Assembly (NCBI RefSeq): GCF_030687715.1 | Contig: NZ_CP117445.1 | Span: 437,501-501,500, forward strand | DNA: 64,000 nucleotides | From: Pseudomonas sp. FP2196 | GTDB lineage: Bacteria; Pseudomonadota; Gammaproteobacteria; Pseudomonadales; Pseudomonadaceae | Direction: 5' to 3' | Part shown: piece after piece, positions 1-14,706 of the stretch | Numbering within the stretch: position 1 is the first letter of the stretch | How the letters are laid out: each line of letters opens with the position of its first letter | Program-made: the position numbers and the translations under genes | Notes under the pieces: model-generated | What the model was told of the DNA's origin: nothing | Database searches by the model: none | What the model saw: the letters and a program-made list of their open reading frames with translations, nothing else

Positions 1-2
1 AG

Positions 3-1769
3 CGGCAAACCAGCGGCTTCAGTGAAAAGCACCTGGACAAGGCTGACTATCTAGCTTCCTACAAGCCACGCAAGACCGCGAAAGCCACCAAAATCACGGA
101 AACCGCGACCGCCGAAGAAAAACCCAAGGCGCCATCTGATGATGAGTTCGACTCAGAGCTCGAAAAAGTGTTTAAGAGTCTGGCGACCTGGCAACCGCCC
201 GGTATCGGCGTGAAACCGTCCAGGCGCACCTTTTCGTTGACTCTGCCCGGGCCTGAGGTTCTGATCAAGGGCAAGGGTAAGGACATTATCAAGATCACCC
301 ATCTGCGCGAGGTGTGGGATCTCTGTCGCAAGGATGGCGTAGATCTTGCGGGGCTTTCCAAGCGCGATGATAAGCCCACCCAGAATGTCTATACGTGGCT
401 GACCACGTGGTGCGGGTTCATTGACTGGGCCCATATCGTCGAAAAGATGCGGATGCTGGAAATCCACTGTATTGGCGATGAAAGTACATTGGAGGTAAGA
501 GCGCGTGAGTCGCTAGATAGACATTTCAGTGACTCAGCCATGGCCTTGAGTGTGCTGCTGGACTATATCGCGGACAGCACCACTGATACTAACGCGGTGA
601 GTTGCCATACCGCGGCCAAGCACCTACAGAAGTTGCTTCTACCAGGTGTTCAGACCTGGACGCAGTACCTGGCAAACCCTATACCCGGTCAAAGTTGGAC
701 GGTCACCGGCACGCACGACATCGGCAGTACACCGACCGTTCCTCATCGTAGCCCTGCCGAGCAAATCGTTAGCCATCACTGGGCGGAGAGCATTCCGAAC
801 AGGCGGCTTCGACTGCATGCTAAATATGCCCGCCCCACCAAGGCGCTCACGCTGCCCTCCGCCATCCTTCGACTGGCGTTGCATCTGAAAAAGGGCAGTG
901 AATCCATGCTTTTGGGGGAGCCCGCCTGGCGCCAAGGTGCGCACAATGAATTGAGGAGTACGCTTGGTGACACTGACCGTGATCTCGATGACCTCCCATG
1001 GTTTGATAATTCCGAGGCACTTTCTTGCGCCATGGGGCGCGAACTCTCCTTCCCCGCAAACACCAAAGACGAGTCGGATGCGCTTCATAGCGCGATGAAT
1101 GATCTTGTATGGCATCAGCTCCAGATTTGCGTCGATAAGAAGCTGAACGAGATCGCTGACCATGATTTGTCGACTGCCGTGGCAGAAAAGTGGCAGATCT
1201 GGCGAGCCGATTTAGACAAAGATCCAGATGCCCGCCTGCTTCTTTTCGAGCAGATGATGTATCCCCAGACCGAAGGCATCAATGCCAAGCATGCGCTGCG
1301 TATTGGGCCTCGCACGGTGGAACTGATGGAATCCGCAACCATCATGCTGCTATTAGCGTGTGTGGGGCTTGGCGGCATTGACTGGCGTTCGATCGAGCCG
1401 ATTGGTGATGTGCTAAGCATCGCCCTGCGCCACTGGTCTGGAGAACCTACCGACCATGACGGGCCTCGGCGCCTGGGTGATGACAATCTACGCAAGCTGT
1501 TGGGCCAGGCCCCACCACCTGTAGTCATCCTTTCGGGTGTAGAGGAGTCTGCGACTGAGTTGCTTGAGGCAGGTATGGCTGAGGATTTGGAAGCCGGTCA
1601 TAGCATGGCAGCCGAGCGACAGCCACGCCTCCTCGTCACCCGATTCCAAGTTTATAAGCAGCTACGAACCGGGACGCTGGTCAAGCTGCAAGCACATTTT
1701 CAAAAGCACTGGAACGCCTGGCTTCAGGCGCGCGAAGCGGCAATCGAAGCTTGTGGGAAAGGACACTGA
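3..1769 (+). CDS. Large component of an ABC-three-component (Lamassu-like) system, 5' truncated
   Basis: The frame is open from the first bases of the window, so the true start lies upstream; the GTG at 168 is only an internal codon. The visible 588 residues begin with a Lys/Ala/Glu-rich segment and contain no nuclease or NTPase motif that I recognise. Near residues 420-450 is a hydrophobic stretch following an RIGP tetrapeptide, which resembles the C-terminal region of ABC-3C effector proteins. The stop is followed after 2 nt by the ATG of the middle component, so the three genes form one operon. The role as effector or large subunit is inferred from position. The N-terminal domain that would name the activity lies outside the window. 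Confidence 0.6.
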   Translation, partial: RQTSGFSEKHLDKADYLASYKPRKTAKATKITETATAEEKPKAPSDDEFDSELEKVFKSLATWQPPGIGVKPSRRTFSLTLPGPEVLIKGKGKDIIKITHLREVWDLCRKDGVDLAGLSKRDDKPTQNVYTWLTTWCGFIDWAHIVEKMRMLEIHCIGDESTLEVRARESLDRHFSDSAMALSVLLDYIADSTTDTNAVSCHTAAKHLQKLLLPGVQTWTQYLANPIPGQSWTVTGTHDIGSTPTVPHRSPAEQIVSHHWAESIPNRRLRLHAKYARPTKALTLPSAILRLALHLKKGSESMLLGEPAWRQGAHNELRSTLGDTDRDLDDLPWFDNSEALSCAMGRELSFPANTKDESDALHSAMNDLVWHQLQICVDKKLNEIADHDLSTAVAEKWQIWRADLDKDPDARLLLFEQMMYPQTEGINAKHALRIGPRTVELMESATIMLLLACVGLGGIDWRSIEPIGDVLSIALRHWSGEPTDHDGPRRLGDDNLRKLLGQAPPPVVILSGVEESATELLEAGMAEDLEAGHSMAAERQPRLLVTRFQVYKQLRTGTLVKLQAHFQKHWNAWLQAREAAIEACGKGH

Positions 1770-1771
1770 TT

Positions 1772-2359
1772 ATGATGACGCTCCAACAATTGACCGCGGC
1801 GATAAGCCTGCGTGCCGAGGGTCGGTATGAGGTACAACTGGCGGATGCGATGGAGCTTCCAGAGGTTGATCACGCCTCACAAATTCTGCGACTAAAACGC
1901 GCTCGTATAGACAAGGCCGGCTGGCGAACTGTTTTGTTGATCGAGCTTCCATCTCACGCAGTACAAGCGGCTCACCAGTGGGCTGCCAATGTTCGCGACG
2001 TCTTGCCGGAGCCGGAAACGTCCGATCTATATATGTTCATCATCCTTAGAGACACCACTCATGATGAGGCCACTCGCATTGAAACGGATGATCGATTCTG
2101 CCGGAAAGTCGTAGCGCGCCAGCAAGAGATGCCGATCGAGTTTCTCGACCGCACATTCCTGGCGGCGCTCGACCCTCCAGGCGAAGTTGAAACGCTTAGC
2201 GACCCACTGGTTGCAGCGTTACAAGCGCTCTCCTCCGCTCAATCGTGGACAAAGGACCATATTGACTTCTGGAAGACGGAACTGCTGTCGACTACGAACG
2301 GCGCCGACGTTGCGCGTTCGCTGCGCGAATCGATGGCTGGCAGCGAGGATCAGCAATGA
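1772..2359 (+). CDS. ABC-three-component system middle component
   Basis: A small soluble protein of 195 residues. The frame is open back to a TTG at 1751, but the ATG at 1772 is preferred because GGAAAGGA lies 8 nt upstream and it follows the previous stop by 2 nt. The segment SDLYMFIILR, then DDRFCRK, then FLDRTFLAAL matches my memory of the ABC-3C middle component 1 family (strand, conserved CRK, then a conserved FLDRTF block). Such proteins sit between effector and ATPase genes and are thought to bridge them. The stop overlaps the ATPase start (ATGA, 2356-2359), indicating translational coupling. Family assignment is from memory of motifs plus gene order. Confidence 0.65.
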   Translation: MMTLQQLTAAISLRAEGRYEVQLADAMELPEVDHASQILRLKRARIDKAGWRTVLLIELPSHAVQAAHQWAANVRDVLPEPETSDLYMFIILRDTTHDEATRIETDDRFCRKVVARQQEMPIEFLDRTFLAALDPPGEVETLSDPLVAALQALSSAQSWTKDHIDFWKTELLSTTNGADVARSLRESMAGSEDQQ

Positions 2360-5300
2360 GCAAGTTGAATTCCATAACGGTGTCAAACCTGCGCAAATTC
2401 GGCCCTGGTGTTCAGATCGAGCTGAGTCCTGGCGCAACCATCGTCCTCGCACCCAATGGCACGGGCAAAACGACCTTGTTCGAGGCCATTGAATTTGGCC
2501 TCACTGGGAGAATTGCCCGCCTTCACGACGACATTAACCATGTCATTCGGGATGACGAGGCGTTCGCTCAGGTCAGTTTGAACTTCGCTGATTTTACCGC
2601 GACGTCCAAAGTTACCGCGGCGGGTAAGGTCAGCCAGGAAGGAGATCTGAGCGACCTATTCCCCGGCATCCCCAAAAATGACCTCCCATTCCTGCTTCGA
2701 CTGACGCATTTGCTTGATCAAAGAGAGAATGAATGGATCGTCAAGGCTGACGAGAAAGACGCCGGTTCCCAGCTGGCGAAGCTTCCGATCGGGCGTGAGG
2801 GTTCCCGGGCCGGCGCGACGCTTCCCTCTGTACGACGGTCATTGACCGACGAAAAAAACCGTCAACAGAAGGGGTTGATTGATCTTGAAAAAGAACTGGG
2901 TGACTGGAATCGACTCATCCAGGAGCGCGACATCGCCGCAGCCGGCGCTGTAGGGGCCTTGCGTCCGCAGGAGCACCTTGCCAAGGTCGTTTCAGAGGTA
3001 GCCGTCCAGACGGAGAGTCTTGAACAGATTTCACCTGGACTACTCTCGGAGCCCGTGAATCAGGACACCCTGGCCCTCGCCCATTCCGCGCTGCTCGATA
3101 TCTTGCGTATCAAAGTGGAGCGTGTGCAGGCACTCATCGTAGTTTTGGCGGAGGCGGACGGCCTGGTAGAAAGCTTCGGTGCCGTGCGGTCTCGACTCGA
3201 AATGCTCAGCGCACAATTGGCCGCCGCGCGCGAGACGCTCGATAGTCACTCGAAGAGCCGAACGGAACAAGCGACGCTCCTTCAGGAGCACCAGACCAAT
3301 ATCCAGCTCGCTCAACAGGAGCGTGTGAGCGTGGCACAAGCGCTGGAGCGACTGGTCAATGAGGCCGGTGCCAAACAGCAGGTCGAGCATCGTAACCAGG
3401 CGTTAACAGAGGCTGCTACCGTCGTCGGGGACGCCGAACAACAATGCGCAGCGTTGCGGGAAAAGCATGAGCGCAACCTGCAGATCCAGAATCAGCACGC
3501 TCAGCTCGACAATCAGTTTCAATCGCTCGACCAGACAGAGAAACGGCTGCGTGAAGGCCAGCGGTTGGTCATCGAGTGGGAAGCTACCGAAACGCGGTTG
3601 AAGGAGAACCGTAAAGAGTCAGATCTTCTTGAAGAGATTCTCGCCCATCTGGGCGCGGAGCTGGCCGAAAAACGCGCTGCACAGCAAGCGTGCAAAACCG
3701 CCGAAGACGCGGCCAGAAATCATTATCAGGCGTTGAGTTCTTCCGCAGATGCGATTCGCCAGGCGGTGGCCTCCATTGCCGAACACCTTCCGCCAGAACA
3801 AGGAAGCTGTCCGCTGTGTTTGTATCCTCATGGCGCAGAGGACTTGCACAACCGTGTAACCAGCGCTTTGCAGGCGATAAACCCTAGCCTGACCGATGCC
3901 GATCAGCAATTGAAAGCCGCTGTAGAGGCCTTGGCCGCAAGCGACGCCGAGGTAGTTTCTGCGCTCGAAGCTGTGGGGGATTGCCAGGCGAACCTTGCGG
4001 CACTGGACGATATGTGCCAGGTCTTGGAGCGGGCGATTGTTCAGTTTCGCATTGATCCAATCCTGGCAAGCGATTCAGTGCCATTGGCTAAAGAATCGCT
4101 AAGGGTTCAACTGGAGGGGATCTCAGCGAGTCGCAGAAGCCTGACAGATCGGCGCGCCGGTCTGGAGCCGTTGATCGCTCAGGACACTTTCGATCAGGCT
4201 CTCCACGCCTACAAAACGGCTGTTGCCGCGCTCGATCAGGCGCGGGTTCGGCACAGCGAGTCGCTGACTCGACGTGATCAAGCGATCGCCGCGTTGTCTG
4301 CACTTACGTCAGGCGCACCCGGTGGGCGATCGCTGGAAGAGCTGACGGTACAAAGAAACCAGCTCGACGATCGAATCCGCGAGCTTCATGGGAAAGCGGA
4401 TACTGTCCAGTCGGCGCTAGACGCACAACAAAGCCAGCTGCTAGAGCTAAGCAGTGCTGTGAGAACGACCGAAGAGGCGATCAGGCATGCTCAGTCCCAG
4501 CTCGCGTCGCTGCGCGCCAGCTGGCAGAGGCTTGGCCTAATGGGCGATCCACTCGCAGAAGCCGCTCAAGCTCGCGTCAGTAACTTGCGTTCGACGTTGG
4601 CTGGTCTTGAGAGCAACTTGGGGATGCTTGAAAATCTGGGGGTTGAGATATCGGCTTGGGCCAAGCTGAATGAATCGCAGCTTGCGCAACGGCTCATCGA
4701 TGTCCAACGCTTGGATCGCACAGAAGAGAGTTTTTTTGCATACCTCAACGACAGGATCACTATTGCCACCGGACAACTGGCCGATTTAACCAAGCTGTCG
4801 GATGCTATGGACGCCCTAGATGGCTTCTTGAAGAAGGAAATCGGAAACGTTCAGAAGCACGTTAGTAAGGTTGTTCCCCGCTGGCAGGCACTGCTCAAGC
4901 GGGTCGTGCGCGAAACGAGGTTCCACGAAGCGAGCCTTAAGTTTTTCACCTCCTACAATAAGGAACGGGCCGAGGTCTCAGTACCGCTGGGCAAGAAATC
5001 AGCCCCGGTACCTGACGTCGCAAGCGAGGCTCAGCTGACTGATCTTCAGTTGACCTTCCTGTTGTCAATGGCCATGAGTCACCAATGGTCACCTTGGAAA
5101 GCCCTGCTGCTCGATGATCCGACCCAGCACCACGACCTGGTGCATGCGTCCGCGGTCTTCGATTTGCTGCGTGACTACATTGTCGACCACGGTTTTCAGG
5201 TCGTAATCGCGACCCACGATGCGCTGCAGGCGCGATATTTCATGCGCAAGCTCCAGAACGACGGCATCGAGGCGAAGATCTGGTCGCTCGTGCCGACGGA

Positions 5301-5370
5301 CAGCGGCGTTACTGCAGAGGAAGGACATCGTAAGCAGCAAACCAGCTTGGCTCCGCCTCCCGTGAGCTGA
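2356..5370 (+). CDS. SMC/Rad50-like ABC ATPase with zinc hook (ABC-3C / LmuB-like)
   Basis: A 1004-residue ABC-type ATPase. The Walker A is PNGTGKTT at residues 33-40. Long Gln/Glu/Ala-rich coiled coils run about 160-470 and 510-860 on either side of a CPLC zinc hook at 485-488. The C-terminal head has a Walker B ending in DDP (D920, D921), the following QHHD, and an IATHD switch with H954. This layout is that of Rad50, SbcC and RloC-type sensors, and the DDPTQHHD form is typical of ABC-3C ATPases. In Lamassu-type systems the ATPase senses foreign DNA and releases the effector; that role is inferred here from the operon. The start overlaps the previous stop by 4 nt. Confidence 0.8.
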   Translation: MSKLNSITVSNLRKFGPGVQIELSPGATIVLAPNGTGKTTLFEAIEFGLTGRIARLHDDINHVIRDDEAFAQVSLNFADFTATSKVTAAGKVSQEGDLSDLFPGIPKNDLPFLLRLTHLLDQRENEWIVKADEKDAGSQLAKLPIGREGSRAGATLPSVRRSLTDEKNRQQKGLIDLEKELGDWNRLIQERDIAAAGAVGALRPQEHLAKVVSEVAVQTESLEQISPGLLSEPVNQDTLALAHSALLDILRIKVERVQALIVVLAEADGLVESFGAVRSRLEMLSAQLAAARETLDSHSKSRTEQATLLQEHQTNIQLAQQERVSVAQALERLVNEAGAKQQVEHRNQALTEAATVVGDAEQQCAALREKHERNLQIQNQHAQLDNQFQSLDQTEKRLREGQRLVIEWEATETRLKENRKESDLLEEILAHLGAELAEKRAAQQACKTAEDAARNHYQALSSSADAIRQAVASIAEHLPPEQGSCPLCLYPHGAEDLHNRVTSALQAINPSLTDADQQLKAAVEALAASDAEVVSALEAVGDCQANLAALDDMCQVLERAIVQFRIDPILASDSVPLAKESLRVQLEGISASRRSLTDRRAGLEPLIAQDTFDQALHAYKTAVAALDQARVRHSESLTRRDQAIAALSALTSGAPGGRSLEELTVQRNQLDDRIRELHGKADTVQSALDAQQSQLLELSSAVRTTEEAIRHAQSQLASLRASWQRLGLMGDPLAEAAQARVSNLRSTLAGLESNLGMLENLGVEISAWAKLNESQLAQRLIDVQRLDRTEESFFAYLNDRITIATGQLADLTKLSDAMDALDGFLKKEIGNVQKHVSKVVPRWQALLKRVVRETRFHEASLKFFTSYNKERAEVSVPLGKKSAPVPDVASEAQLTDLQLTFLLSMAMSHQWSPWKALLLDDPTQHHDLVHASAVFDLLRDYIVDHGFQVVIATHDALQARYFMRKLQNDGIEAKIWSLVPTDSGVTAEEGHRKQQTSLAPPPVS

Positions 5371-5483
5371 CTTAGCGGCAGCTGGGCGAAACTAAGCTGA
5401 GCAATTTGGCTTGGTTTCGCTTCCTATACCCACCTCACCCCGCAATCCCCCCATGCGTTTGCTCAAAAAATTTGTACATTTAG

Positions 5484-5502
5484 CTCGTGTCCTTCCCACG
5501 AG
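5484..5502 (+). promoter_or_regulatory. Stem-loop abutting the start of the 27-codon ORF
   Basis: CTCGTG (5484-5489) pairs with CACGAG (5497-5502) around the loop TCCTTCC. The stem ends one base before the ATG at 5503, so it would hide the start region in a transcript. The pyrimidine loop could also pair with a Shine-Dalgarno sequence. On the other strand the loop reads GGAAGGA. A function in translational control is inference. Confidence 0.3.
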
Positions 5503-5586
5503 ATGAAAAAAAAGAGCGACTTGATTGATCTTATTTTGGCTTTAGCTATTTTAGTTCGAGTCATCACACAGCTCCTTTCAAAATAA
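5503..5586 (+). CDS. Possible 27-residue hydrophobic peptide (type I toxin-like)
   Basis: Too short for routine ORF calling. The frame reads MKKKSDLIDLILALAI and ends in a Ser-Lys pair before TAA: a lysine-rich start, one continuous hydrophobic or amphipathic helix of about 17 residues, and a positively charged end. That is the general shape of type I toxin peptides. A stem-loop ends immediately before the ATG and no separate Shine-Dalgarno sequence is accessible. Against it, an antisense 33-codon frame has a better ribosome site, and the length is within what chance could give. No family is recognised. Confidence 0.3.
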   Translation: MKKKSDLIDLILALAILVRVITQLLSK

Positions 5587-5766
5587 CGACGATAGGTTGT
5601 CAGTAAGTAATTTTGTAGACGCCTCCTTTTGGTCCTCTCAGACTCCGGGAAGCCTACTCTCATCTCTGATACAGCATCGCTGTGGGGGAAGGGTATTTAC
5701 ATAAAACGTGCGGTTATGGATATTTCGCAGTTTCACTGAGCCACATAGGATGCTCCTTAACTTTCA

Positions 5767-5796
5767 TTGACAATGCTGATTAAGAATGGAGATAAT
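5767..5796 (+). promoter_or_regulatory. Sigma-70-like promoter overlapping the annotated T5orf172 start
   Basis: TTGACA at 5767-5772 and GATAAT at 5791-5796 are separated by 18 bases, close to consensus. The -10 lies inside the first codons that follow the ATG at 5786. If this promoter is used, that ATG is not on the transcript and translation would begin at the next in-frame ATG at 5843. Confidence 0.45.
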
Positions 5797-6475
5797 ATAC
5801 TTAACCAATACTAGATTATCATTTCTTGGGCAAAACCTTTCAATGAACTTCGAATATGATGGATTTGACTCAGACGAAGAAATAGCCGAACAAAACGATC
5901 ACTATGCTGCATATCCGCTCTCTGAACATGGATGGCTGTATATCGTGGCCGACATTAGAGATATGAGCATATCAAAAATTGGGTTAACAACAAAAAAAAC
6001 CCCTGAACAAAGACTTGCTGAGGGAAAAACCTATAACCCTTTCATTGTACTTTTTGCCACTTATAATCTCTCAAAACTAACCTATGGAATTTCAAAGGTT
6101 GAGCTAAAGGATATCGAAGGCTATATTCACCGAAGATCATTTGCTGATCCAGTCATGCACTTATATACAGGTCGAAACTCCGAATGGTTCTATATGCATC
6201 CGGAAACAGCTGAGCTAGAAGTTGATCGGATGCTGGCGAAGCGCGGGTTTAGTGTTGGGGGAAAATATCTGTACTCGAGCTATGAAGGCGACCACAATCA
6301 TAACGGTATTTATGCCTCACGAATGAGAGAGATAAAAACTATATATCGTCCCTTTCCTAGAGATTTTGAGGAAATGGTCGCCGACCTTGGAACTCCAAAA
6401 ATATACTACCAGAGTTATTTAGATTACCTTAAAGACTATCACCTAAGAAGCCATAGGGACAAAATTTATCTTTGA
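5786..6475 (+). CDS. T5orf172-type GIY-YIG domain protein
   Basis: 229 residues from ATG 5786, or 210 from ATG 5843, which lies downstream of a good promoter. The core pattern is GWLYIVAD, then KIGLTT with a following PEQR, then a glutamate-containing helix (ELKDIEG) and NSEWFYMHPE. This is the signature of the T5orf172/MUG113 branch of the GIY-YIG nuclease superfamily, found in phage and defence-associated proteins. Residues 1-50 are acidic and unassigned. The gene is AT-rich and stands alone on the plus strand between the ABC-3C-like operon and the minus-strand genes. The family call is fairly firm; whether the protein cuts nucleic acid is not shown. Confidence 0.6.
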   Translation: MEIIYLTNTRLSFLGQNLSMNFEYDGFDSDEEIAEQNDHYAAYPLSEHGWLYIVADIRDMSISKIGLTTKKTPEQRLAEGKTYNPFIVLFATYNLSKLTYGISKVELKDIEGYIHRRSFADPVMHLYTGRNSEWFYMHPETAELEVDRMLAKRGFSVGGKYLYSSYEGDHNHNGIYASRMREIKTIYRPFPRDFEEMVADLGTPKIYYQSYLDYLKDYHLRSHRDKIYL

Positions 6476-6584
6476 TTTCTCCCGCGCTCCATGGCTGTCG
6501 CCCCAGTGGAATGCAATGGAAAACTAGTAGCAATCTTTGAATTCATGCCTGATACAGTCAGCTTAAGAAGATTGATACAGAGAT

Positions 6585-6602
6585 GGAGGCCTTGCGGCCT
6601 CC
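6585..6602. terminator. GC-rich stem-loop between convergent genes
   Basis: GGAGGCC (6585-6591), loop TTGC, GGCCTCC (6596-6602) is a perfect 7-bp stem. It lies between converging transcripts. No T-run follows directly on either strand; the nearest on the plus strand is TTTTT 17 nt further on, so it is at best a weak terminator. Confidence 0.3.
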
Positions 6603-6621
6603 AAACCTTCAGCGACAGTTT

Positions 6622-6858
6622 TTATTGTCCAAATCCACCAGCCAGCATCGATACACAGGAGTGCCCCAGCATCTGAACAGCATCGGATGCTTCACCCCAC
6701 TCGATCTAGTACGGTGGCTCGCCGTCATCACTATATGGGGGCTCAAAGGGCTCACCTGTTTCGATCAAACGTATACGCTCGACAAAAGGTGCAGAGGCAT
6801 CGCGATAAAAGTATCGGATAAAGCTAACGCGCCGTTTCAGAAACCATGCGACGTCCAT
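6622..6858 (-). pseudogene. Interrupted small gene with in-frame TAG
   Basis: On the minus strand an ATG at 6858 is preceded by AGGAG with 7-nt spacing. The frame reads MDVAWFLKRRVSFIRYFYRD and continues as 50 protein-like codons to a TAG at 6708-6706. The same frame stays open and protein-like for 27 more codons (containing IEWGEASDAVQMLGHS) to TAA at 6624-6622. I recall Pseudomonas hypothetical proteins with a similar start and a continuous PPY/F-x-x-EW junction, so the TAG looks like a nonsense mutation, and the tail appears truncated. The name and function of the family are unknown to me. It could instead be a genuine 50-residue protein. Confidence 0.45.
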
Positions 6859-6960
6859 CAGATATCTCCTACGATTGAGCATATTAGAGCGTACTGACGA
6901 TATTTATCTCGACCCCTGATTTAAAGCTACAACAATTATGAGGGCGACAACTCAAATTAG

Positions 6961-7986
6961 TCAGTTTCTGCCAGGCAACATGAATTCATGACCTGTAAGC
7001 TCAGAAGATATTTCATCAATAAATTGGGCAGATGCCGAAGATATGAACTCCGAGAGTAGCCAGTTATGTTGGCAGTCGAAATGTCGTGACAACTTATCAG
7101 GCTCATATCTAGCCATTTCAGATAATTTATGCATAGCAGCAAAAGCGATGGTCATGGAGCTTCTAGGTATAAGGCCTGCGATATTGCCTGCGCGCTTCAA
7201 GTACCAAAGCCGCTGAGCGCCGTTTATATAGTAAATATTTTTTCTGAGCTTTGTATGGTAGCCTTTATATCTTACCAGGTTCTGCTCAACCTGATTCGGC
7301 TTCCAGTTGAACCTGTTAGTTGATCTAATTAGAAAAGCATCTTCAACACTGATATCTCGTTCGAATTTATCGGGTAGCTTGTTCATAGTATGGTTTGTGG
7401 CGTATTGCCCTGTGACTTCAGCACAAAACCATGCCTCATTTGTTTTTGCAGACTTAACAATTTTTGGATCTGCCAATGGTATAAAAAGCTCAGAATCAGA
7501 GCTATAGGTCAAGTTAAACGCTCGGTGTATGCCAGGGAGATTATATAAAAGATCCTTTAGCGAATATGAGTTTTCGTCAGCAGGCTCACCTAGGTGTCGG
7601 CACAGTGCTGGAAGGATGCCGGAAGTCTTAAATTTTACCTGCTCATTACTAAGGGAGGTATGTCCCTTTTTCGTGTAACCCGATACACCGTGCTCATCGC
7701 TGAACTGGACGCCTTTGGCTAGCAATAGTGTTTTTGTTGCATTCAAGAAGCAATAGTAAGCAGTGAGAGGGGCAGACGTTTTAGGGAGCATTTTAGTGGC
7801 GTCATAGAAACTCCTTGCCTGACTCCAGAAAAACCTAGCATCTTTTTTTCCGGCCCGCTTCAGCCACAAGTCAACGTAATCCCAAGTGCTGGTAACTAGC
7901 ACGGTCCTTTCGTTGAAATGCGGTGTAGTGACTGATTTATGTATGGTTAGGTTTTTTCGTTTGTATTTTATGTCACGATGTGCCAT
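6961..7986 (-). CDS. YaaC-like protein
   Basis: 341 residues, soluble, rich in Lys, Asn, Ser and aromatic residues. Residues about 50-110 have the pattern FFWSQARSFYDA, then YYCFLNATKTLLLAKG, then a following EHGVSG, which matches the YaaC family as I remember it. A second conserved-looking block near the C terminus is NWLLSEF. The biochemical function of YaaC proteins is not established. The start ATG 7986 has AAGGAA six bases upstream. The gene lies 82 bp downstream of gmtX on the same strand, so it could be read from the recombinase operon, but its AT-rich composition marks it as separate cargo. Confidence 0.5.
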   Translation of the reverse strand: MAHRDIKYKRKNLTIHKSVTTPHFNERTVLVTSTWDYVDLWLKRAGKKDARFFWSQARSFYDATKMLPKTSAPLTAYYCFLNATKTLLLAKGVQFSDEHGVSGYTKKGHTSLSNEQVKFKTSGILPALCRHLGEPADENSYSLKDLLYNLPGIHRAFNLTYSSDSELFIPLADPKIVKSAKTNEAWFCAEVTGQYATNHTMNKLPDKFERDISVEDAFLIRSTNRFNWKPNQVEQNLVRYKGYHTKLRKNIYYINGAQRLWYLKRAGNIAGLIPRSSMTIAFAAMHKLSEMARYEPDKLSRHFDCQHNWLLSEFISSASAQFIDEISSELTGHEFMLPGRN

Positions 7987-8068
7987 TACAGTTCCTTGCG
8001 ATTACGGCTTTGTACTCTTCTAATCAACTCAGCAGTTCATTTTTCGCTAGAATAAATTGCAGTTGACG

Positions 8069-8731
8069 TCAATTACCCAGTATTTTACGTATCGCCCTCG
8101 CAAAGCCCACTTCAAATATTGTCCGGCCTCGCTCATTGATAATTTCGCCATGGCTGCCTTCATGAAGGCTTCGTTCTCCAAGGTACTCGGGTGATATGGC
8201 CTTCTGAAGAGAATCTCGTTCAGACGGGGTTAGTTGCGCAGAGAGGGCAAGCACAGCTACTGACTGCATTCCAGGGGCCACCGGGATAGTTGCTCCCAGT
8301 GGGCGTCGGTCAACAGTAACTTGAGTGTTAGCCTTAAGGACGTTGAGTTGTGCCTTGAGCTTATCTCGCTCGGCGATGACGGCTTGCATGATGGAGCGGA
8401 TAGCTGGATCTTCAATGCGAATCAGATACTCATGGCTTGCCAGCACCTTCGCCGGTTTTGGCACCGGCGGTCCGGCGTAGGCCGCCCAAGCTTCGATGAG
8501 CACTCGATAGTCTGCGGACTGGGCGTTATAGAGAGCTCGCCCCTTCATGACGTTGCCAGCTTCGGCCAGCCGGCCGATGGCTGGCAACGAAAAGTCTCGG
8601 GACCTGGCTTCATAATGCTTGCGGCAAAGCTCGTGCATCTTCGCCAGGTTTGCGCGGCGGTTCGAACGCCCGCCTTTGGCTAGTAACGCTTCTAGGACCG
8701 CATCCGGGTGAATGTCCGTTTTGCCATTCAT
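8069..8731 (-). CDS. gmtX: Gamma-mobile-trio protein GmtX
   Basis: 220 residues from ATG 8731, which has AGGAGAC just upstream and overlaps the gmtZ stop in an ATGA. A longer frame from TTG 8782 would overlap gmtZ by over 50 nt and is rejected. The N-terminal half is basic and looks DNA-binding (NRRANLAKMHELCRKHY, then IGRLAEAGNVMKGRAL). A central helix (AVIAERDKLKAQLNVL) could form a coiled coil. The C-terminal segment ends in GRTIFEVGFARAIRKI. The identification rests on being the third gene after two tyrosine recombinases in the GMT order. Its molecular role in transposition is not known to me. Confidence 0.65.
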   Translation of the reverse strand: MNGKTDIHPDAVLEALLAKGGRSNRRANLAKMHELCRKHYEARSRDFSLPAIGRLAEAGNVMKGRALYNAQSADYRVLIEAWAAYAGPPVPKPAKVLASHEYLIRIEDPAIRSIMQAVIAERDKLKAQLNVLKANTQVTVDRRPLGATIPVAPGMQSVAVLALSAQLTPSERDSLQKAISPEYLGERSLHEGSHGEIINERGRTIFEVGFARAIRKILGN

Positions 8732-11349
8732 GTCTCGTCTCCTGGGAGGACCCGGTGCCTGGCATAAGCTGTCTGAGGGCAATTTATCGGCGGTAGCAGC
8801 GTAGCGAGGTCTATGTCGAAGTGGTGGCTTAGGCTCACACCCGCGTCAATCAAATGAATCACTTGGCGTTGGCCAAGCGCGGGATTCTCCGGGTTCATTT
8901 TCTGCGCAAGGTGGCGCATAAAAGCGTTGCCGGCGAGAAGTTGCTCCTGTTCGCTTAGTAGCATGAACAGGGGAGACAGATCCTCGCGATAAAGGACAGC
9001 ATCAAGCAACTGACTACGACGGAACACCGCCTTACCCGGCTCTAGGTCAGGGTAGACCTCAACGCTTTCGCATACGCCCGCAAGCTGGAGTAACTCCGAC
9101 TCCGTTTCTTCGAAAGCGATATTCACATCACCCACCATGCCAGCTACGATTAATTGCGTACCATCGCCAAGCTGCGCATGAAGGGCAGCTTTGCAGCGTT
9201 CGATGAGACGCCAACAGGCTACCAAGTCCTCGGCAAGGTCGCTGAAGCGTTTAATGCTTTTTTCCCAGACCCGCTCTGCCTGCCGGTACGCGTCAATCCG
9301 CACAAACGGTTGGTTTTCTTCCTCGGCGTCCGCTTTTTGTTTTTTCAGGTCTTGCAGCGTGTTTTCATGAGTAATACAGGCGTTACGTGCCTCGTCAAAG
9401 TGATAGGCGAGAGTATTAAAGTGGGCGACCAGTGCAGGCATATGGTGCGGCTCGGTCACAAACCAGCGGCAGCGCACGCAATTTCTGCTACCGCCGGGCA
9501 CTGGGCCATATTTCTTTAAACTCGGTGAGCCAATCTGAGGGCCGCCGTTATAGCAACCACCCACCGAGCTATTCTCTTCGATTTCACTAGTGTTGCCGCC
9601 GACCAAGCAAAGCCCGTGGTGCATTGGCATCCAACCAACTGGGTTCCGTGCGGCTGGATGCGAGGGAATGGCGGCGGCAAAGCCGGACACGCTGTTGCAG
9701 ATGGCCTTTTCTAGGAGTTCATCATATTCGGTGTCTAGTAGAAAATTTTGAATGCTTACTTCTTTGCTCTCCTCCAGTCGCTCTACTGCCTTACGCAACA
9801 CGTCGCGGATATGCGTCGCACCGGGCTTGGTGTAGTACAAAGTCATCAGCAAACGGCTGTGGCCTACGAGTTTTTGAAGGATAGGGAACGGCACCAGCCC
9901 TTCTAGGGCAAGCGCGGTGATGAGTGATACTCGCAGACTGTGCAGAGGAAAGAGAGTTACTGTATATGTTCCTGGTTTTCTTTTGGTTCGTAATTCCTGG
10001 GCCGGAATGAAACGAATCGGGATGCCGTTGCAATGCGTTTCGCCTTGGTTGGCAAGCTGCAGCTCGAGCGTCTCCAGCAAGCGATACCAAGGCATATCCA
10101 ACGAGTCTCGGCTTAAAGGAAGGTTGCGCTTGCCATCGCGCGATTCCGGCAGGCGGAAGAGAAAGCAGGCCCTGGGATAACCTGCCAGTTGCACCTCGCT
10201 TTTCACCATAATGTGACGCGCGTCCAATTCTGCCCAGTTCGTGCGCCTCGAAATCGGGTTGTATTTCTCTTGCCAGTCGCGCAGTTTTTCAAACCAGTAC
10301 AATATATCCTGATGCTCAGCCCCCCCAGCGGGCCATGGCAGGACATAGCCTTTTTCAGGTCCGGACTTGGCGATGTCAGAGGTCTTGTTAGTGTTTATGT
10401 AGAGCTGGGTTGGCAGTTCGGCACCATCGACAAATGTGTCGCTACGGCGAAATACTCCCTGTCGCAGCGGTCGGCGTTCGCTACCCTCCGCTAGCCTATT
10501 CGTATTTAGAACCCAAACACTTTTCTCATACCGCCAAGTATCAGCTTCGCCCGAGTCGAGCAGGCGGACCTGGTGGTTGCGCAGCGGCAAAATGAGCTTC
10601 ACGAGCAGGGCCACCCATCGAACCGGGCTCCACATTTCCAGCACTGACCCACCGCGATAATTCCGGTTAAATTTCCTGACTCGCCATACGCAGTCCGGGT
10701 CATTGCGATCTATCTGTTCTTCTTCTACCTCGAACCAGTCTGGTGCGACAGATCCGCCATGACCAGTTGCGGTCCCTAACGCATCCTGCGCCCACTGCCA
10801 GTCGCGGAAATGTGGCCCCGCAGCAAGTATCTGCCGCAAGCGCACGATATAGCCGTAAGGTAGCGGAGAGTACACACTCTCATAATTTTTGAGCATCCCG
10901 GCCCTAGAGAGGCGGGGAACAGGATTGCGGAAGGATGGCAAGATCACCGGCTGACCGTCGTCGGCTGGTTTGCTGAATTCTCGTAGCAGCACGAAATTCA
11001 AGAAGGAGTGAATCCAGTTATTAGATACAACGCCCTCTATCGAATCTGGGAGTGCCACCCGGTATAAGTCAGGAAGAATTGAGTTTCTCGATAGGAACAC
11101 AGCAGGGTCCAGCGGCAGTCTCTGCTGGATAAGAAATCGCTCAAAGAACGCGCTCAAGGCTTTCAGCTTCTTGTCTAGGCCGGTAGTCTCGCCCTTCAGC
11201 CAGTCCATCGCAAATATGCGCCAGACACCCAGTTGCGGATAATCGCGCTCGACCCAGCCAAGCGCGATGTCCGATTCACGTCGAACTCCTATTACCTTTG
11301 GGGCCAAGATGGTTGAGGCTTTGAGCGCTGTAGGTTTCTTTTCTGCCAT
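8728..11349 (-). CDS. gmtZ: Gamma-mobile-trio integrase GmtZ (VPA1269-like tyrosine recombinase)
   Basis: An 873-residue protein. The central region carries a tyrosine-recombinase catalytic set: R257 in LPLRNHQVR, H470 and R473 in HSLR, H497 in LVGHSR, and the nucleophile at Y505 or Y506. The 370 residues after the catalytic domain contain four cysteines (C581, C599, C624, C627, the last two as CVRC) and adjacent histidines, suggesting a zinc site, then a long helical segment. Such a long C-terminal extension separates it from XerC/D-type enzymes and fits GmtZ. ATG 11349 is preceded by AGGAG. It starts 24 bp after gmtY and overlaps gmtX by 4 nt. Confidence 0.75.
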   Translation of the reverse strand: MAEKKPTALKASTILAPKVIGVRRESDIALGWVERDYPQLGVWRIFAMDWLKGETTGLDKKLKALSAFFERFLIQQRLPLDPAVFLSRNSILPDLYRVALPDSIEGVVSNNWIHSFLNFVLLREFSKPADDGQPVILPSFRNPVPRLSRAGMLKNYESVYSPLPYGYIVRLRQILAAGPHFRDWQWAQDALGTATGHGGSVAPDWFEVEEEQIDRNDPDCVWRVRKFNRNYRGGSVLEMWSPVRWVALLVKLILPLRNHQVRLLDSGEADTWRYEKSVWVLNTNRLAEGSERRPLRQGVFRRSDTFVDGAELPTQLYINTNKTSDIAKSGPEKGYVLPWPAGGAEHQDILYWFEKLRDWQEKYNPISRRTNWAELDARHIMVKSEVQLAGYPRACFLFRLPESRDGKRNLPLSRDSLDMPWYRLLETLELQLANQGETHCNGIPIRFIPAQELRTKRKPGTYTVTLFPLHSLRVSLITALALEGLVPFPILQKLVGHSRLLMTLYYTKPGATHIRDVLRKAVERLEESKEVSIQNFLLDTEYDELLEKAICNSVSGFAAAIPSHPAARNPVGWMPMHHGLCLVGGNTSEIEENSSVGGCYNGGPQIGSPSLKKYGPVPGGSRNCVRCRWFVTEPHHMPALVAHFNTLAYHFDEARNACITHENTLQDLKKQKADAEEENQPFVRIDAYRQAERVWEKSIKRFSDLAEDLVACWRLIERCKAALHAQLGDGTQLIVAGMVGDVNIAFEETESELLQLAGVCESVEVYPDLEPGKAVFRRSQLLDAVLYREDLSPLFMLLSEQEQLLAGNAFMRHLAQKMNPENPALGQRQVIHLIDAGVSLSHHFDIDLATLLPPINCPQTAYARHRVLPGDET

Positions 11350-11373
11350 GAGAGCTCCTAATCTTCGAGTTCA

Positions 11374-12759
11374 CTATCGGGGCAACAACAAACCAGTCGC
11401 TGGAAGTATCCCGTCGTATTTATCCCGTAACCGCTGCGCAGCTGCCTCTAGTGCTGCGAGGGCCTCGCGAGTGTTCGCCTGGGTGTAGACCTCCTGGCTC
11501 TCGAGCGACGCATGGTGCATGAAGCGACGGATGAACTCCTTATCGACGCCAGCTTTGCGCAGTCGCCGGCCATAGGCGTGGCGGTGACCGTGCGGCGTGG
11601 TGCCCAGCGCCTTACTCACCGTGAGCCCGATACGTTCGCATGCCGCAGCGTGCGCCTTGTTGTACTGGGTGAGCGTGTACATAGCGCCGATGGGCTCACG
11701 GCTCAGGTTGATAAAGGCAAATGGGTGGCCACGCTCAATACGCGCTACCTGTTCGAGGTAACGGTGCCAGAGTTGCAGGAACCACTCGCTGTACTCAGGC
11801 ACAAACCAGTACGCCTGCTTGTAGTAAGCCCCATCGTGCATGCCGCCCTTCCAGCCAGCGTGTCGTCGGTTCATCAGGTCGGTACGGGGGACGAGGCCGA
11901 ACTGGAGGGCGAGGTATTCGGATCGCTTGCCCTTGCATGGCCGTCCCCGCTCGTCGCGCCAATCGCTGGGTGCGGCACCGTGGCTCGGATGGTGGATGAA
12001 GACCTGCGCCTGACGTGGATTGGCAGGGTTCGGGCACACGTCGGAGATGTAGAGATGGAAAGGCTCCGATTCACGGAAGCCCGCGCCGTGCTGCAGCAAG
12101 GTGAGGAGCATGCCGCGATAGTCGTAGCGTCCAGCAACGCAAAATCCCTTGACCAGCAGTTCCTCGAAGCGCTCTTCCGGAAAGGCCGGGGGATCGCTTC
12201 GCTCAACCTTAGGTAGGCGCTGGCCTCGCACAAAGTGCCCTGTCTCGGCGGGGGATAGGTTCTGCGCCCAGGTATGTCCAAGGAAGGCCTTGCTGCGTTT
12301 GTACTGATAAGCGGCCTCGTCGGTCTGTCGATCAAAGGCGCTGCCTGCATATTGGGAGTTCACCTTGGCCGCCTCAGGTCGGGTCTTGCCGAGCCAATCG
12401 AAGAAGTCGGAGAGGTGGGTGATAATGTGTGAAGCATCCTGCGGTGAGCGTGGCGGCCAGCACAAGCCGCTGGGATCAAGTCTTGTCTCGCGGTCGAAAG
12501 TCCCGGTATAGAGTCGTTGGGCGAAGTTCTGGAATAGTAGGTAGGTTTCGCACTCCTCCGGATTGGTTTGCAGATACTCGAGGAACATCCGCACGGAGCG
12601 TGTCACCTTCCGCATCCACGTCAGACTTCGGTCGTGGCTTCGGTGAAGACAATAGTCGAGCAGCGTCTCTAGCACACCATCGGGCGTAAGCAGCGCTGGC
12701 AGTTCCGTGTAGACACCTGTCGCATCTGTGTAGACACGAGCCTTCACCGTAACAAACAT
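11374..12759 (-). CDS. gmtY: Gamma-mobile-trio tyrosine recombinase GmtY
   Basis: 461 residues. An N-terminal helical core-binding-like domain (about 1-190) precedes a catalytic domain with R229 in GAGFRESE, H390 and R393 in HGHR, the HH pair at 415-416, and Y425 in EVYTQ. This is the complete R-H-R-H-Y tyrosine recombinase set. Insertions around residues 240-320 are larger than in phage integrases. ATG 12759 has GAGGAG upstream. It leads the trio and is the presumed strand-exchange enzyme moving the island. A 65-codon frame ends 30 bp upstream and may be co-transcribed. Confidence 0.75.
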   Translation of the reverse strand: MFVTVKARVYTDATGVYTELPALLTPDGVLETLLDYCLHRSHDRSLTWMRKVTRSVRMFLEYLQTNPEECETYLLFQNFAQRLYTGTFDRETRLDPSGLCWPPRSPQDASHIITHLSDFFDWLGKTRPEAAKVNSQYAGSAFDRQTDEAAYQYKRSKAFLGHTWAQNLSPAETGHFVRGQRLPKVERSDPPAFPEERFEELLVKGFCVAGRYDYRGMLLTLLQHGAGFRESEPFHLYISDVCPNPANPRQAQVFIHHPSHGAAPSDWRDERGRPCKGKRSEYLALQFGLVPRTDLMNRRHAGWKGGMHDGAYYKQAYWFVPEYSEWFLQLWHRYLEQVARIERGHPFAFINLSREPIGAMYTLTQYNKAHAAACERIGLTVSKALGTTPHGHRHAYGRRLRKAGVDKEFIRRFMHHASLESQEVYTQANTREALAALEAAAQRLRDKYDGILPATGLLLPR

Positions 12760-12789
12760 GAAGTGCTCCTCATCTACGAACTGTGCAGG

Positions 12790-12987
12790 TTAATTCGCCC
12801 ATTCGTAGCCGTTCTCAACGACCTGATGTGTTTCGCTAACCACAATGAGCGCCTTACCGCGGTGTACCAAGCAGAAATTAGATACGAGTTCAGCGTCGAC
12901 ACCCGCTGCGGACGTTGTGTCGCCAAGCGCGCCTATCCATACATAACGGTGAGTTTCGAGGCATGCCAAGTAGTAACCTGTAGGCAT
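12790..12987 (-). CDS. Small protein upstream of gmtY
   Basis: A 65-codon frame starting MPTGYYLACLETHRYVWIGA. ATG 12987 has GGAG seven bases upstream; a longer version from TTG 13032 lacks such a site. Composition is protein-like: aromatic-rich N terminus, then a hydrophobic strand pattern (VAELVSNF-like and KALIVVSE). It ends 30 bp before gmtY on the same strand, so it would be the first gene of the recombinase operon. I recognise no domain. It could be a regulator or accessory factor of the trio, or a chance frame. Confidence 0.45.
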   Translation of the reverse strand: MPTGYYLACLETHRYVWIGALGDTTSAAGVDAELVSNFCLVHRGKALIVVSETHQVVENGYEWAN

Positions 12988-13175
12988 AGCGTTGCTCCAA
13001 TCGATGAGGTTGCGATACGCGAAGCTGGCCAACGCTAACGATGGCGACGATCGGATAAAAGCTGTCTGCTAAGAAGCATAGAAACTTCAACCCCATATCC
13101 TTTCCCTGATACATAGAACCAAGTTCCAGCTACATACAATGGTAGATTACGGTATGGCTTTCACACGGACAGAGC

Positions 13176-13202
13176 AAAAAAATACCCCTCAGAGAGGGGT
13201 AT
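13176..13202 (-). terminator. Rho-independent terminator reading leftward at the island edge
   Basis: A perfect 9-bp stem, ATACCCCTC (13182-13190) with GAGGGGTAT (13194-13202) and a 3-base loop. On the minus strand it is followed by seven T residues (13182-13176). No minus-strand gene lies directly upstream, so it may insulate the recombinase operon from leftward transcription entering from the chromosome. Confidence 0.65.
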
Positions 13203-13237
13203 GGTGATTCATTACTGACTTAAGCATCCGAACTATG

Positions 13238-13257
13238 TATTCCCAGGTGGGGGAATA
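13238..13257. repeat. Short inverted repeat near the island junction
   Basis: TATTCCC (13238-13244) and GGGAATA (13251-13257) flank the 6-base spacer AGGTGG. It lies between the last island signal and the IS element. It could be a recombinase-binding site or a terminator remnant; neither is shown. Confidence 0.3.
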
Positions 13258-13287
13258 ACGAGAGAGTCGGGGCTTTTTGTATGGCAG

Positions 13288-13314
13288 TGTCCCGTCCTGA
13301 ATAAGGTTTACACC
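13288..13314 (+). repeat. IS left terminal inverted repeat
   Basis: Starts TGTCCCGTCCTGAATAAGG and ends in TTTACACC. It matches the reverse complement of the right end at 23 of 27 positions. Confidence 0.85.
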
Positions 13315-13340
13315 TTCTGACTTCTTTTCAGGAAGGTGCA

Positions 13341-13736
13341 ATGGATACGGGCACGAAGCGCAGTCAGCGTGATTACACACTGGCTTTTAAATTATCGGTT
13401 GTCGACCAGGTCGAAAAAGGCGAGTTGAGTTATAAAGAGGCTCAGCGGCGCTATGGGATTCAGGGTCGGTCGACGGTGCTGGTTTGGTTACGCAAACATG
13501 GTCGCCAGGACTGGAGCCAAGGCGCCTCCATTCGTTCCCAGAGGATCAGATCTATGGACGAGCCAACCTTGCCACTGACTCCCGAGCAAAGAATCAAAGA
13601 ACTCGAGGAACAACTGGCGCTGGCAACTCAGAAAGCCCAATTCTTTGAAGCCGTGGTCGATGTTCTGAAAAATGACTACGGCGTATCTGTCGTAAAAAAG
13701 CGACCCGGCAAGTCGTTGCGCAAACCCAAACCCTGA
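13341..13736 (+). CDS. IS3-family transposase OrfA
   Basis: 131 residues. The N terminus is a helix-turn-helix of the IS3/IS911 OrfA type (YTLAFKLSVVDQVEKGE, then SYKEAQRRYGIQGRSTV). A leucine-zipper-like helix near residues 88-115 (IKELEEQLALATQKAQFF) would mediate multimerisation with OrfAB. GGAAGG precedes the ATG. Near its end the message carries the slippery heptamer that allows a shift into orfB. Confidence 0.9.
   Translation: MDTGTKRSQRDYTLAFKLSVVDQVEKGELSYKEAQRRYGIQGRSTVLVWLRKHGRQDWSQGASIRSQRIRSMDEPTLPLTPEQRIKELEEQLALATQKAQFFEAVVDVLKNDYGVSVVKKRPGKSLRKPKP
13694..13700 (+). promoter_or_regulatory. Programmed -1 frameshift site (A AAA AAG)
   Basis: In the orfA frame the codons AAA (13695) and AAG (13698) are preceded by A, giving the canonical heptamer. 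A -1 slip enters the frame used by orfB, which is open from upstream of this point through 14563, so a single OrfAB transposase would result. Confidence 0.75.
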
Positions 13737-13759
13737 GTGTCAGCAGGGCTTGCCAATTT

Positions 13760-14563
13760 ATGGGAATAAGCCGTCAGGCCTATTACAAACGCAACCGGGT
13801 CTACAGGGCTCGGGCCGACCAGGATCAGCAGCTCATAACGTTTGTAGAGAAGGTCCGTGCTCGCCAACCGTGCATCGGCACTCGCAAGCTGCATTCGATG
13901 ATGCATGAGCAGCGTGAGCAACAGGAGCTCCATGTTGGCCGGGATCGTTTGTTCGCGGTTTTGCGGGAAAGCCGCCAGTTGGTCCGCAGAAAACGGGCGT
14001 ATCACAAGACGACCGACAGCCATCATCGCTTCCGCCGACACCCCAATCTGCTGAAACCAAGCCCGGAACAAATAGTCGCTACCGGCCCAGAACAGGTCTG
14101 GGTGGCCGATATTACTTACCTGCCTACCCGTGATGGCGTTGCCTATTTGAGTTTAGTGACGGATGTCTTTTCGAGAAAAATAGTCGGCTATCACGTGCAT
14201 GAAAGTCTGCACACCAACTCCGTGGTGCAAGCCTTTCGAATGGCTTTGAAGCGACGTCGAAGCGTTCAGAAACTGGTCCATCACTCGGATCGAGGCGCGC
14301 AGTACTGCTCGGCCCTTTATCAAGAAATGCACGCAAAGCATGGCATCACTTGCTCGATGACCGACGGCTACGACTGCTACCAAAACGCCTTGGCAGAGCG
14401 GGTCAACGGCATCTTGAAAACAGAGTTCTTGATCCACCGACCTGCGGATTTTGCGCAGGCCACACAGATGGTGCGAGAGGCCGTCACGATCTACAACCAG
14501 GAGCGGCCGCACCTCTCTTTAAAATACAAAACGCCCGATGCGGTGCATCGGGCGTTAGGGTGA
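13760..14563 (+). CDS. IS3-family transposase OrfB (DDE integrase domain)
   Basis: 267 residues counted from ATG 13760, although the frame is open further upstream and the functional product is probably the OrfAB fusion made by -1 frameshifting at 13694-13700. It has an HTH_21-like N-terminal region and an rve-type catalytic core. The DDE residues are visible as D in VWVADITYLP, D in HHSDRGAQYCS and E in YQNALAERVNG. No stop or frameshift interrupts it. Confidence 0.9.
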   Translation: MGISRQAYYKRNRVYRARADQDQQLITFVEKVRARQPCIGTRKLHSMMHEQREQQELHVGRDRLFAVLRESRQLVRRKRAYHKTTDSHHRFRRHPNLLKPSPEQIVATGPEQVWVADITYLPTRDGVAYLSLVTDVFSRKIVGYHVHESLHTNSVVQAFRMALKRRRSVQKLVHHSDRGAQYCSALYQEMHAKHGITCSMTDGYDCYQNALAERVNGILKTEFLIHRPADFAQATQMVREAVTIYNQERPHLSLKYKTPDAVHRALG

Positions 14564-14567
14564 AACA

Positions 14568-14594
14568 GGTGTAAACCTATTTCAGGACTAGACA
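14568..14594 (-). repeat. IS right terminal inverted repeat
   Basis: Begins GGTGTAAACC and ends GGACTAGACA on the plus strand; it is the partner of the left repeat at 13288-13314. Confidence 0.85.
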
Positions 14595-14595
14595 C

Positions 14596-14706
14596 AGATC
14601 AAAAGATCGCAGCCTTCGGCAGCTCCTGCAGTTGGCCGTGGACACTGCCGATTTCGCGGATCGGCAACGATCCTGTAGGAGCTGCCGAAGGCTGCGATCT
14701 TCTGAT
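14596..14706. repeat. REP-type inverted repeat pair
   Basis: Two copies of the unit GATCGCAGCC-TTCGGCAGCTCC face each other around a short centre. This is a fluorescens-group REP pair lying downstream of mrcA. Similar units occur at 35640-35725 and 63867-63949. Confidence 0.85.

Follow-up and report, generated by a model that had tools for sequence, protein, structure and literature searches.

Why a defense island sits where it does is usually explained by a tRNA gene or by a single conserved site. The stretch of the Pseudomonas sp. FP2196 chromosome analyzed here (the window; 64,000 nucleotides of a 6.24-Mb genome, positions 437,501 to 501,500 of contig NZ_CP117445.1) carries an island that raises the question afresh, because relatives of it lie in the terminators of other genes, which suggests how such islands find harmless places. 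The element belongs to the Gamma-Mobile-Trio (GMT) islands, reportedly introduced by Mahata et al. in 2024 in Nat Microbiol. The initial annotation of the sequence recognized the trio and its cargo; the target site, missed in that first reading, is the more informative feature.

Gene content and extent of the island

The element is a complete GMT island of 14,453 bp (14.45 kb), lying between the two arms of the terminator of its left neighbor and spanning window positions -1194 to 13258. Its left part is outside the window, and its left edge corresponds to contig position 436,306. The initial annotation had placed the island at 1 to 13287, which was nearly correct on the right; on the left the edge falls beyond the window. 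To judge from Pfam domains, the left neighbor is a malic enzyme gene and the right neighbor a penicillin-binding protein gene, which we take to be maeB and ponA. The island's gene order from left to right is LmuA-like, middle component, SMC-type ATPase, T5orf172, YaaC-like, gmtX, gmtZ, and gmtY; the YaaC-like gene and the three gmt genes lie on the strand opposite to the three-gene operon. Directly to the right of the split terminator, at 13288-14594, is an IS3-family insertion sequence with two reading frames, bordered by CAG at 13285-13287 and again at 14595-14597, probably a 3-bp duplication; this copy is host-side and outside the island.

The supposition that two tandem tyrosine recombinases and a small third gene make up a GMT was borne out by the NCBIfam models, all of which were exceeded far above their cut-offs: gmtY (11374..12759, minus strand) matched NF040693 with 528.6 bits (cut-off, 340), gmtZ (8728..11349, minus strand), encoding the large recombinase, matched NF047926 with 978.9 bits (cut-off, 600), and gmtX (8069..8731, minus strand) matched NF040692 with 226 bits (cut-off, 40). 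The two recombinases match these GMT equivalog models rather than ordinary integrase families. Each has the H-x-x-R...Y signature by which active tyrosine recombinases are known (H390-x-x-R393 and Tyr425 in GmtY; H-x-x-R at 470 and a later Tyr in GmtZ). The three genes are adjacent to one another, as in the GMT trio, and the 24-bp gap between gmtY and gmtZ contains no gene.

The cargo also proved to be as first described, an ABC-3C/Lamassu-type operon with T5orf172 and YaaC proteins, the T5orf172 assignment barely passing its cut-off. The first operon gene, LmuA-like and encoding 655 aa on the plus strand, starts at about -198, outside the window, and occupies 1..1769 within it; the first 67 residues are therefore missing from the window. 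The C-terminal part of its product matches CTD2 (Pfam) with 241 bits. The second gene (1772..2359, plus strand) encodes an LmuC-like middle component matching MComp1 (Pfam) with 40 bits (cut-off, 27.3) and LmuC weakly, and the third (2356..5370, plus strand) encodes an LmuB-like SMC/Rad50-type ATPase of 1004 aa, whose best PADLOC match is the LmuB model (240 bits, residues 4-995). A CTD-type effector, a middle component, and an SMC-type ATPase thus stand together in one operon, which is the Lamassu/ABC-3C layout.

The N-terminal region of the LmuA-like protein keeps E14, E42, D50, D51, and Q65, with K67 near-invariant, in an alignment of 24, a pattern that we take to be a PD-(D/E)xK motif, and the region accordingly looks like a PD-(D/E)xK nuclease as far as its residues can tell. 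By sequence the protein matches the LmuA model weakly and nothing in the PDB. Its structural model is poor (mean pLDDT, 60), and the fold matches drawn from it appear weak but coherent: Hachiman at E 9.5e-4 and then, interspersed with unrelated proteins, LmuA and Cap4 from E 0.07 upward. The putative GIY-YIG-type T5orf172 protein (5786..6475, plus strand) only just passes its Pfam cut-off (20.9 bits against 20), and its core is kept among homologs despite this marginal score; 47 matches were found, the window's own copy included, and in an alignment of 20 most homologs begin about 19 or more residues later. The YaaC-like protein (6961..7986, minus strand; Pfam YaaC, 178 bits) has 991 homologs and a confidently predicted fold (mean pLDDT, 89.5), and its model matched no PDB entry at E 0.001 or better. 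We infer an anti-phage function for the unassigned cargo genes. In the Lamassu/ABC-3C-type operon, the SMC-type ATPase and the middle component would sense foreign DNA and release the nuclease.

Insertion in the maeB terminator hairpin

The left junction of the island closes with one half of a terminator and the right junction opens with the other. Beyond the left edge of the window, at about -1215 to -1201, lies the left arm of this split maeB terminator; the right arm with its T tract, AGTCGGGGCTTTTTG, is at 13265..13279 on the plus strand. The island occupies the loop of the hairpin, separated from either arm by a 6-bp spacer. On the gmtY side, the element ends at 13258 (minus strand, reading TTATTCCCCC...), and the adjoining spacer, 13259..13264, reads CGAGAG on the plus strand; the same letters occur in the loop of the relative L037, and we judge this spacer to be the target's own loop.

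Island-free relatives confirmed what the site looks like before insertion. A search matched 59 genomes, the island's own included, and among the best 29 of the 58 matching relatives the terminator was intact and without an island in all 28 that were judged, L021 being left out for want of the maeB end in its sequence. The island genes are therefore not core genes at this place, in agreement with the first reading. The letters of the maeB terminator stem differ in some of these relatives.

The island also brings a terminator of its own. An intrinsic terminator with a stem of 10 and a T tract lies at 13173..13203 on the minus strand, 55 nt inside the gmtY-side end, and reads into the island. Such an inward terminator was present 34-57 nt inside the gmtY-side end at 21 of 21 ends examined, in both of the clades described below. 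Of the 5 ends found in plasmid copies, 4 have it. Among other GMT clades, 2 of 21 loci had any match in the 450 nt before gmtY, a loose comparison given that the ends there were not located, and both matches were 6-bp stems 359-410 nt from gmtY; in random stretches the same scan matched 22 of 760. At the far end, 10 of 12 clade-1 islands and one of three clade-2 islands carry an inward terminator, which is absent from the island here. A GC-poor hairpin without a T tract, at window positions -1112 to -1085, lies near the position of the far-end inward terminator of relatives and may be its decayed remnant. The built-in terminators may stand in for the host terminator that insertion breaks, or they may insulate the trio against transcription coming from the host.

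Targets of related islands

Of 398 genomes in the genus, 28 had a protein matching GmtY at E 1e-40 or better, and a scan of 369 genomes across the class yielded, besides the island's own copy, two distant copies only. We compared 20 loci with GmtY relatives (18 full matches at 71-89% and two partial ones at 80 and 84%) and four further loci from Pseudomonas genomes, at least three of which apparently represent the same strains. Wherever it was found, the gmtY-side end bears a constant motif, and the far end bears another. The far-end motif, built from 8 islands, was located at 14 places, 5 of them new, spread over 13 of the 21 genomes searched, whereas its reversed control occurred 0 times. 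About 6 bp beyond each end motif, the host DNA on the two sides forms a complementary pair of arms, most of which have A and T tracts. A second clade, with GmtY 38-40% identical to the one here, has the same arrangement with different end motifs; its far ends were located by a search for the matching arm, and the common element-side motif found at them provides an independent check on that search.

For 14 islands from several genera, both ends could be placed on a single contig; 11 of these islands belong to clade 1 and 3 to clade 2. This set omits L006, for which only the far end was seen, L064, whose far end is on another contig and whose gmtY-side end was not located, L068, the gmtY-side-only L054, L055, L057, L059, L069, and L071, the same-strain L007/L063, and L065 and L066 (no clear end); L005 is the same strain as L061 and L070 the same strain as L052, each counted once. 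Over 12 positions, the two arms of an island were complementary at a mean of 10.4, versus 7.3 for mismatched pairs and 5.2 for random positions in the same flanks, and the observed sum was reached by none of 20,000 reassignments. The arms start within 0-2 nt of the 6-bp centre in all 14, the range that the test allowed. A site was counted as terminator-like if at least 8 of 12 positions paired and four consecutive T or A were present; 11 of the 14 islands qualified, versus 0.18% of 36,819 control positions; without the three clade-2 islands, whose high scores are partly circular because their far ends were found by the arm search, the count is 8 of 11.

The islands that lacked a run of four T or A by this fixed test were L051, L061, and L067. 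The empty site of L061 is terminator-shaped all the same, and L051 is located in a palindrome without a T run. Tested apart, since its far end is on another contig, L068 fits the terminator pattern, with arms paired at 10 of 12 positions and a T run. Of the six gmtY-side ends lacking a far end, judged by eye, L057 and L059 had no terminator half and L055 was unclear. Empty sites were seen elsewhere as well: the sspB terminator that holds a clade-2 island is an intact hairpin in 17 of the 20 best-matching genomes, the genome studied here among them, and the site at a DUF748 gene that holds a clade-1 island is the same intact site in 2 of the 20 best-matching genomes (both by eye).

One terminator was entered twice. 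L071 and L072, whose GmtY proteins are 87% identical, are flanked by the same BON-domain gene and hairpin arm, which lie on the gmtY side in L071 and on the far side in L072. The other neighbor of L072 is sspB; L071, whose far side runs off the contig, presumably has sspB there too. The two islands entered one terminator in opposite orientations, which is what a symmetric target would lead one to expect. In L061 the gmtY-side 6 bp equal the empty-site loop and the far-side 6 bp differ from it; in L072 both spacers occur in loops of relatives, which leaves the origin of the 6 bp ambiguous. Folding energies, taken as a guide to which end keeps the target's 6 bp, gave no consistent answer, favoring the gmtY side in 3 of the 14 islands and the other side in 7, with 4 ties.

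Plasmid-borne copies of clade 1 were examined after the rule had been formed, 9 of 130 matching records being taken and H3, H5, H10-H12, and later matches left out. Five had both ends (a count that omits L157, L159, which is the same island as L155, L160, and L162): L156 lies in a perfect terminator, L154 in a short repeat without a T run, and three in neither (L158, L161, and L155, the far end of the last being uncertain). The four others gave one end or none. Plasmid-borne copies L154-L162 with readable ends thus lie mostly outside terminators, unlike the copies on chromosomes and draft contigs. When the two sets are combined, 16 of 19 islands sit at an inverted repeat, defined by pairing at 8 or more of 12 positions, and the repeat is terminator-like for 12 of the 19. 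Terminator targeting by GMT islands looks like a strong preference, weaker on plasmids, rather than a law, because only one of the five plasmid copies was in a terminator.

Other GMT clades, of which a few loci were inspected by eye, are located at or in genes. L082, L086, and L090, which are distant GMT loci, share a host flank immediately ahead of the element. It resembles an end of a greA/greB-type gene and may point to a fixed target at the end of a gene in that clade. A scan of 399 genomes of the order to which G766 belongs added one further copy, with GmtY 46% alike, to three known ones. This copy, L166/L167 (G775:C12), is a second GMT element in the genome of L060, and by eye it is seemingly inside a gene, presumably for a sulfate-binding protein, and not in a terminator. 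Two patterns run against viral contigs found no close GmtY there, a clade-2 gmtY had no match in any E. coli genome, and no Rfam family was found in four loci.

Proposed mechanism and known systems

The explanation that we consider well supported as a whole is that of a GMT island whose recombinases join it to a hairpin loop, that supplies terminators of its own, and that carries Lamassu/ABC-3C cargo. GmtY and GmtZ, with GmtX helping, would join the element's ends to the loop, about 6 bp long, of a hairpin-forming inverted repeat, the two arms serving as the paired sites that tyrosine recombinases need. The recombinases would act on the imperfectly inverted ends of the element and exchange 6-bp spacers, GmtX would take the place of Srap or TnpC, and the island's own terminators would replace or insulate what insertion breaks. 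Terminators are common hairpin-forming repeats located between genes, and the island would therefore land where little harm is done.

How the loop is recognized admits of two main accounts. The terminator may be read as a palindrome in duplex DNA, with a loose sequence preference for an A tract, a C-rich arm, and a 6-bp centre, rather than as a folded hairpin, and we hold this to be a serious contender that falls a little short of being probable. Duplex DNA with inverted arms is the normal substrate of tyrosine recombinases, most clade-1 arms have in common an A tract and a C-rich beginning, and L051 sits in a palindrome that has no T run; on the other side, arm sequences vary by site and differ again in clade 2, although a loose consensus remains compatible with this variation. 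The other account, which we advance tentatively and regard as somewhat doubtful, is that at least two GMT clades read DNA shape, entering the folded terminator loop in either orientation and with largely any stem sequence, the split terminators being made good. By analogy, such recognition would be comparable to that by integron integrases, which use folded attC sites. Folding would account for the variety of stems, the use of both orientations, and the precise centring, but so would a loose palindrome. Precedent for the recognition of motifs of this kind comes from integron integrases and from group IIC introns.

The remaining accounts fared worse. Near-random integration, with selection sparing only insertions in harmless terminators, would draw on the intergenic position of terminators and on the more varied sites of plasmid copies; it is improbable, since neutral intergenic DNA needs no such precision as the placement of the arms 0-2 nt from a 6-bp centre in 14 of 14 islands, and one terminator was hit twice. 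That islands are flanked by matching inverted arms could also mean that the hairpin arms are the element's own terminal inverted repeat, a very improbable reading given that the arms differ between islands and pair better within than between them, and one ruled out at maeB, sspB, and the DUF748 gene, where relatives without the island have the arms as well. An ordinary phage-integrase island with unrelated passengers, to which the match of GmtY to Phage_integrase (Pfam) would point, is ruled out by the far better GMT equivalog matches, and the 64-kb window contains no tRNA or tmRNA gene.

If insertion into terminator loops by GMT recombinases is accepted, the use of terminators as a class of target would account for the spread of one family over many loci and genera without gene breakage, and the rule would allow island ends to be called automatically from sequence. 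Should shape reading be true, any terminator in a genome would be a possible home for defense cargo. Linked to this are the questions of what role two dissimilar recombinases and a third protein play and whether folded DNA is read by any tyrosine recombinase besides the integron integrase.

Insertion at terminators as such is already known. Tn7 also inserts at terminators, and the same is true of group IIC introns. According to passages of PMC4424553, these introns insert at intrinsic terminator motifs, with a smaller fraction at attC, and they differ in being retroelements that insert after terminators, neither in the loop nor by a recombinase. The islands described in passages of PMC12595487 adjoin tmRNA and not terminators.

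The Lamassu/ABC-3C systems, as outlined in passages of PMC10586767, resemble the cargo operon in having an effector with a variable N terminus, a middle component, and an SMC-like ATPase in one operon; the effector here differs in matching the LmuA model weakly by sequence. A Lamassu-type operon in a GMT island is seemingly not new, because a passage of PMC12715929 already names Lamassu-family systems among GMT cargo. The island agrees with GMT islands as known in its GmtY, GmtZ, and GmtX (NCBIfam equivalogs) and in defense cargo that includes Lamassu-type systems, and what is described here in addition is the terminator-loop target and the inward end terminators; the founding GMT report lay outside both this comparison and the literature searched, in which we found no account of GMT, SE, GInt, or Tn554 elements inserting into terminator loops, and we claim no priority.

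Among multi-integrase elements, the GInts (ginABCD) are likewise genomic islands with cargo and include Pseudomonas among their hosts; they differ in having four genes with three putative integrases and in lying often at the end of ssb, and a word search of PMC5385486, the source of these statements, gave no mention of terminators. The island here has two recombinases and one small gene only, not the ginABCD layout. SE elements have the four core genes intA, tfp, intB, and srap, and our island has no Tfp gene between its recombinases; a word search of the SE paper found terminators nowhere mentioned. In SEs the target's 6 bp are kept at the first-integrase side and foreign 6 bp stand at the other, a pattern that L061 fits when set against its empty site, with which the island here is consistent, and for which L072 is ambiguous. 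A parallel in layout is offered by TnpA, TnpB, and TnpC of Tn554, again three genes encoding tyrosine recombinases and a small third protein, and Tn554 likewise carries 6 bp from its old site; unlike these islands, it is listed as target-specific in PMC10214605. An exchange of 6-bp spacers has been proposed for SEs and Tn554 alike. The GMT element itself is thus known, and it is the target that is newly seen, one whose recognition is possibly structure-guided.
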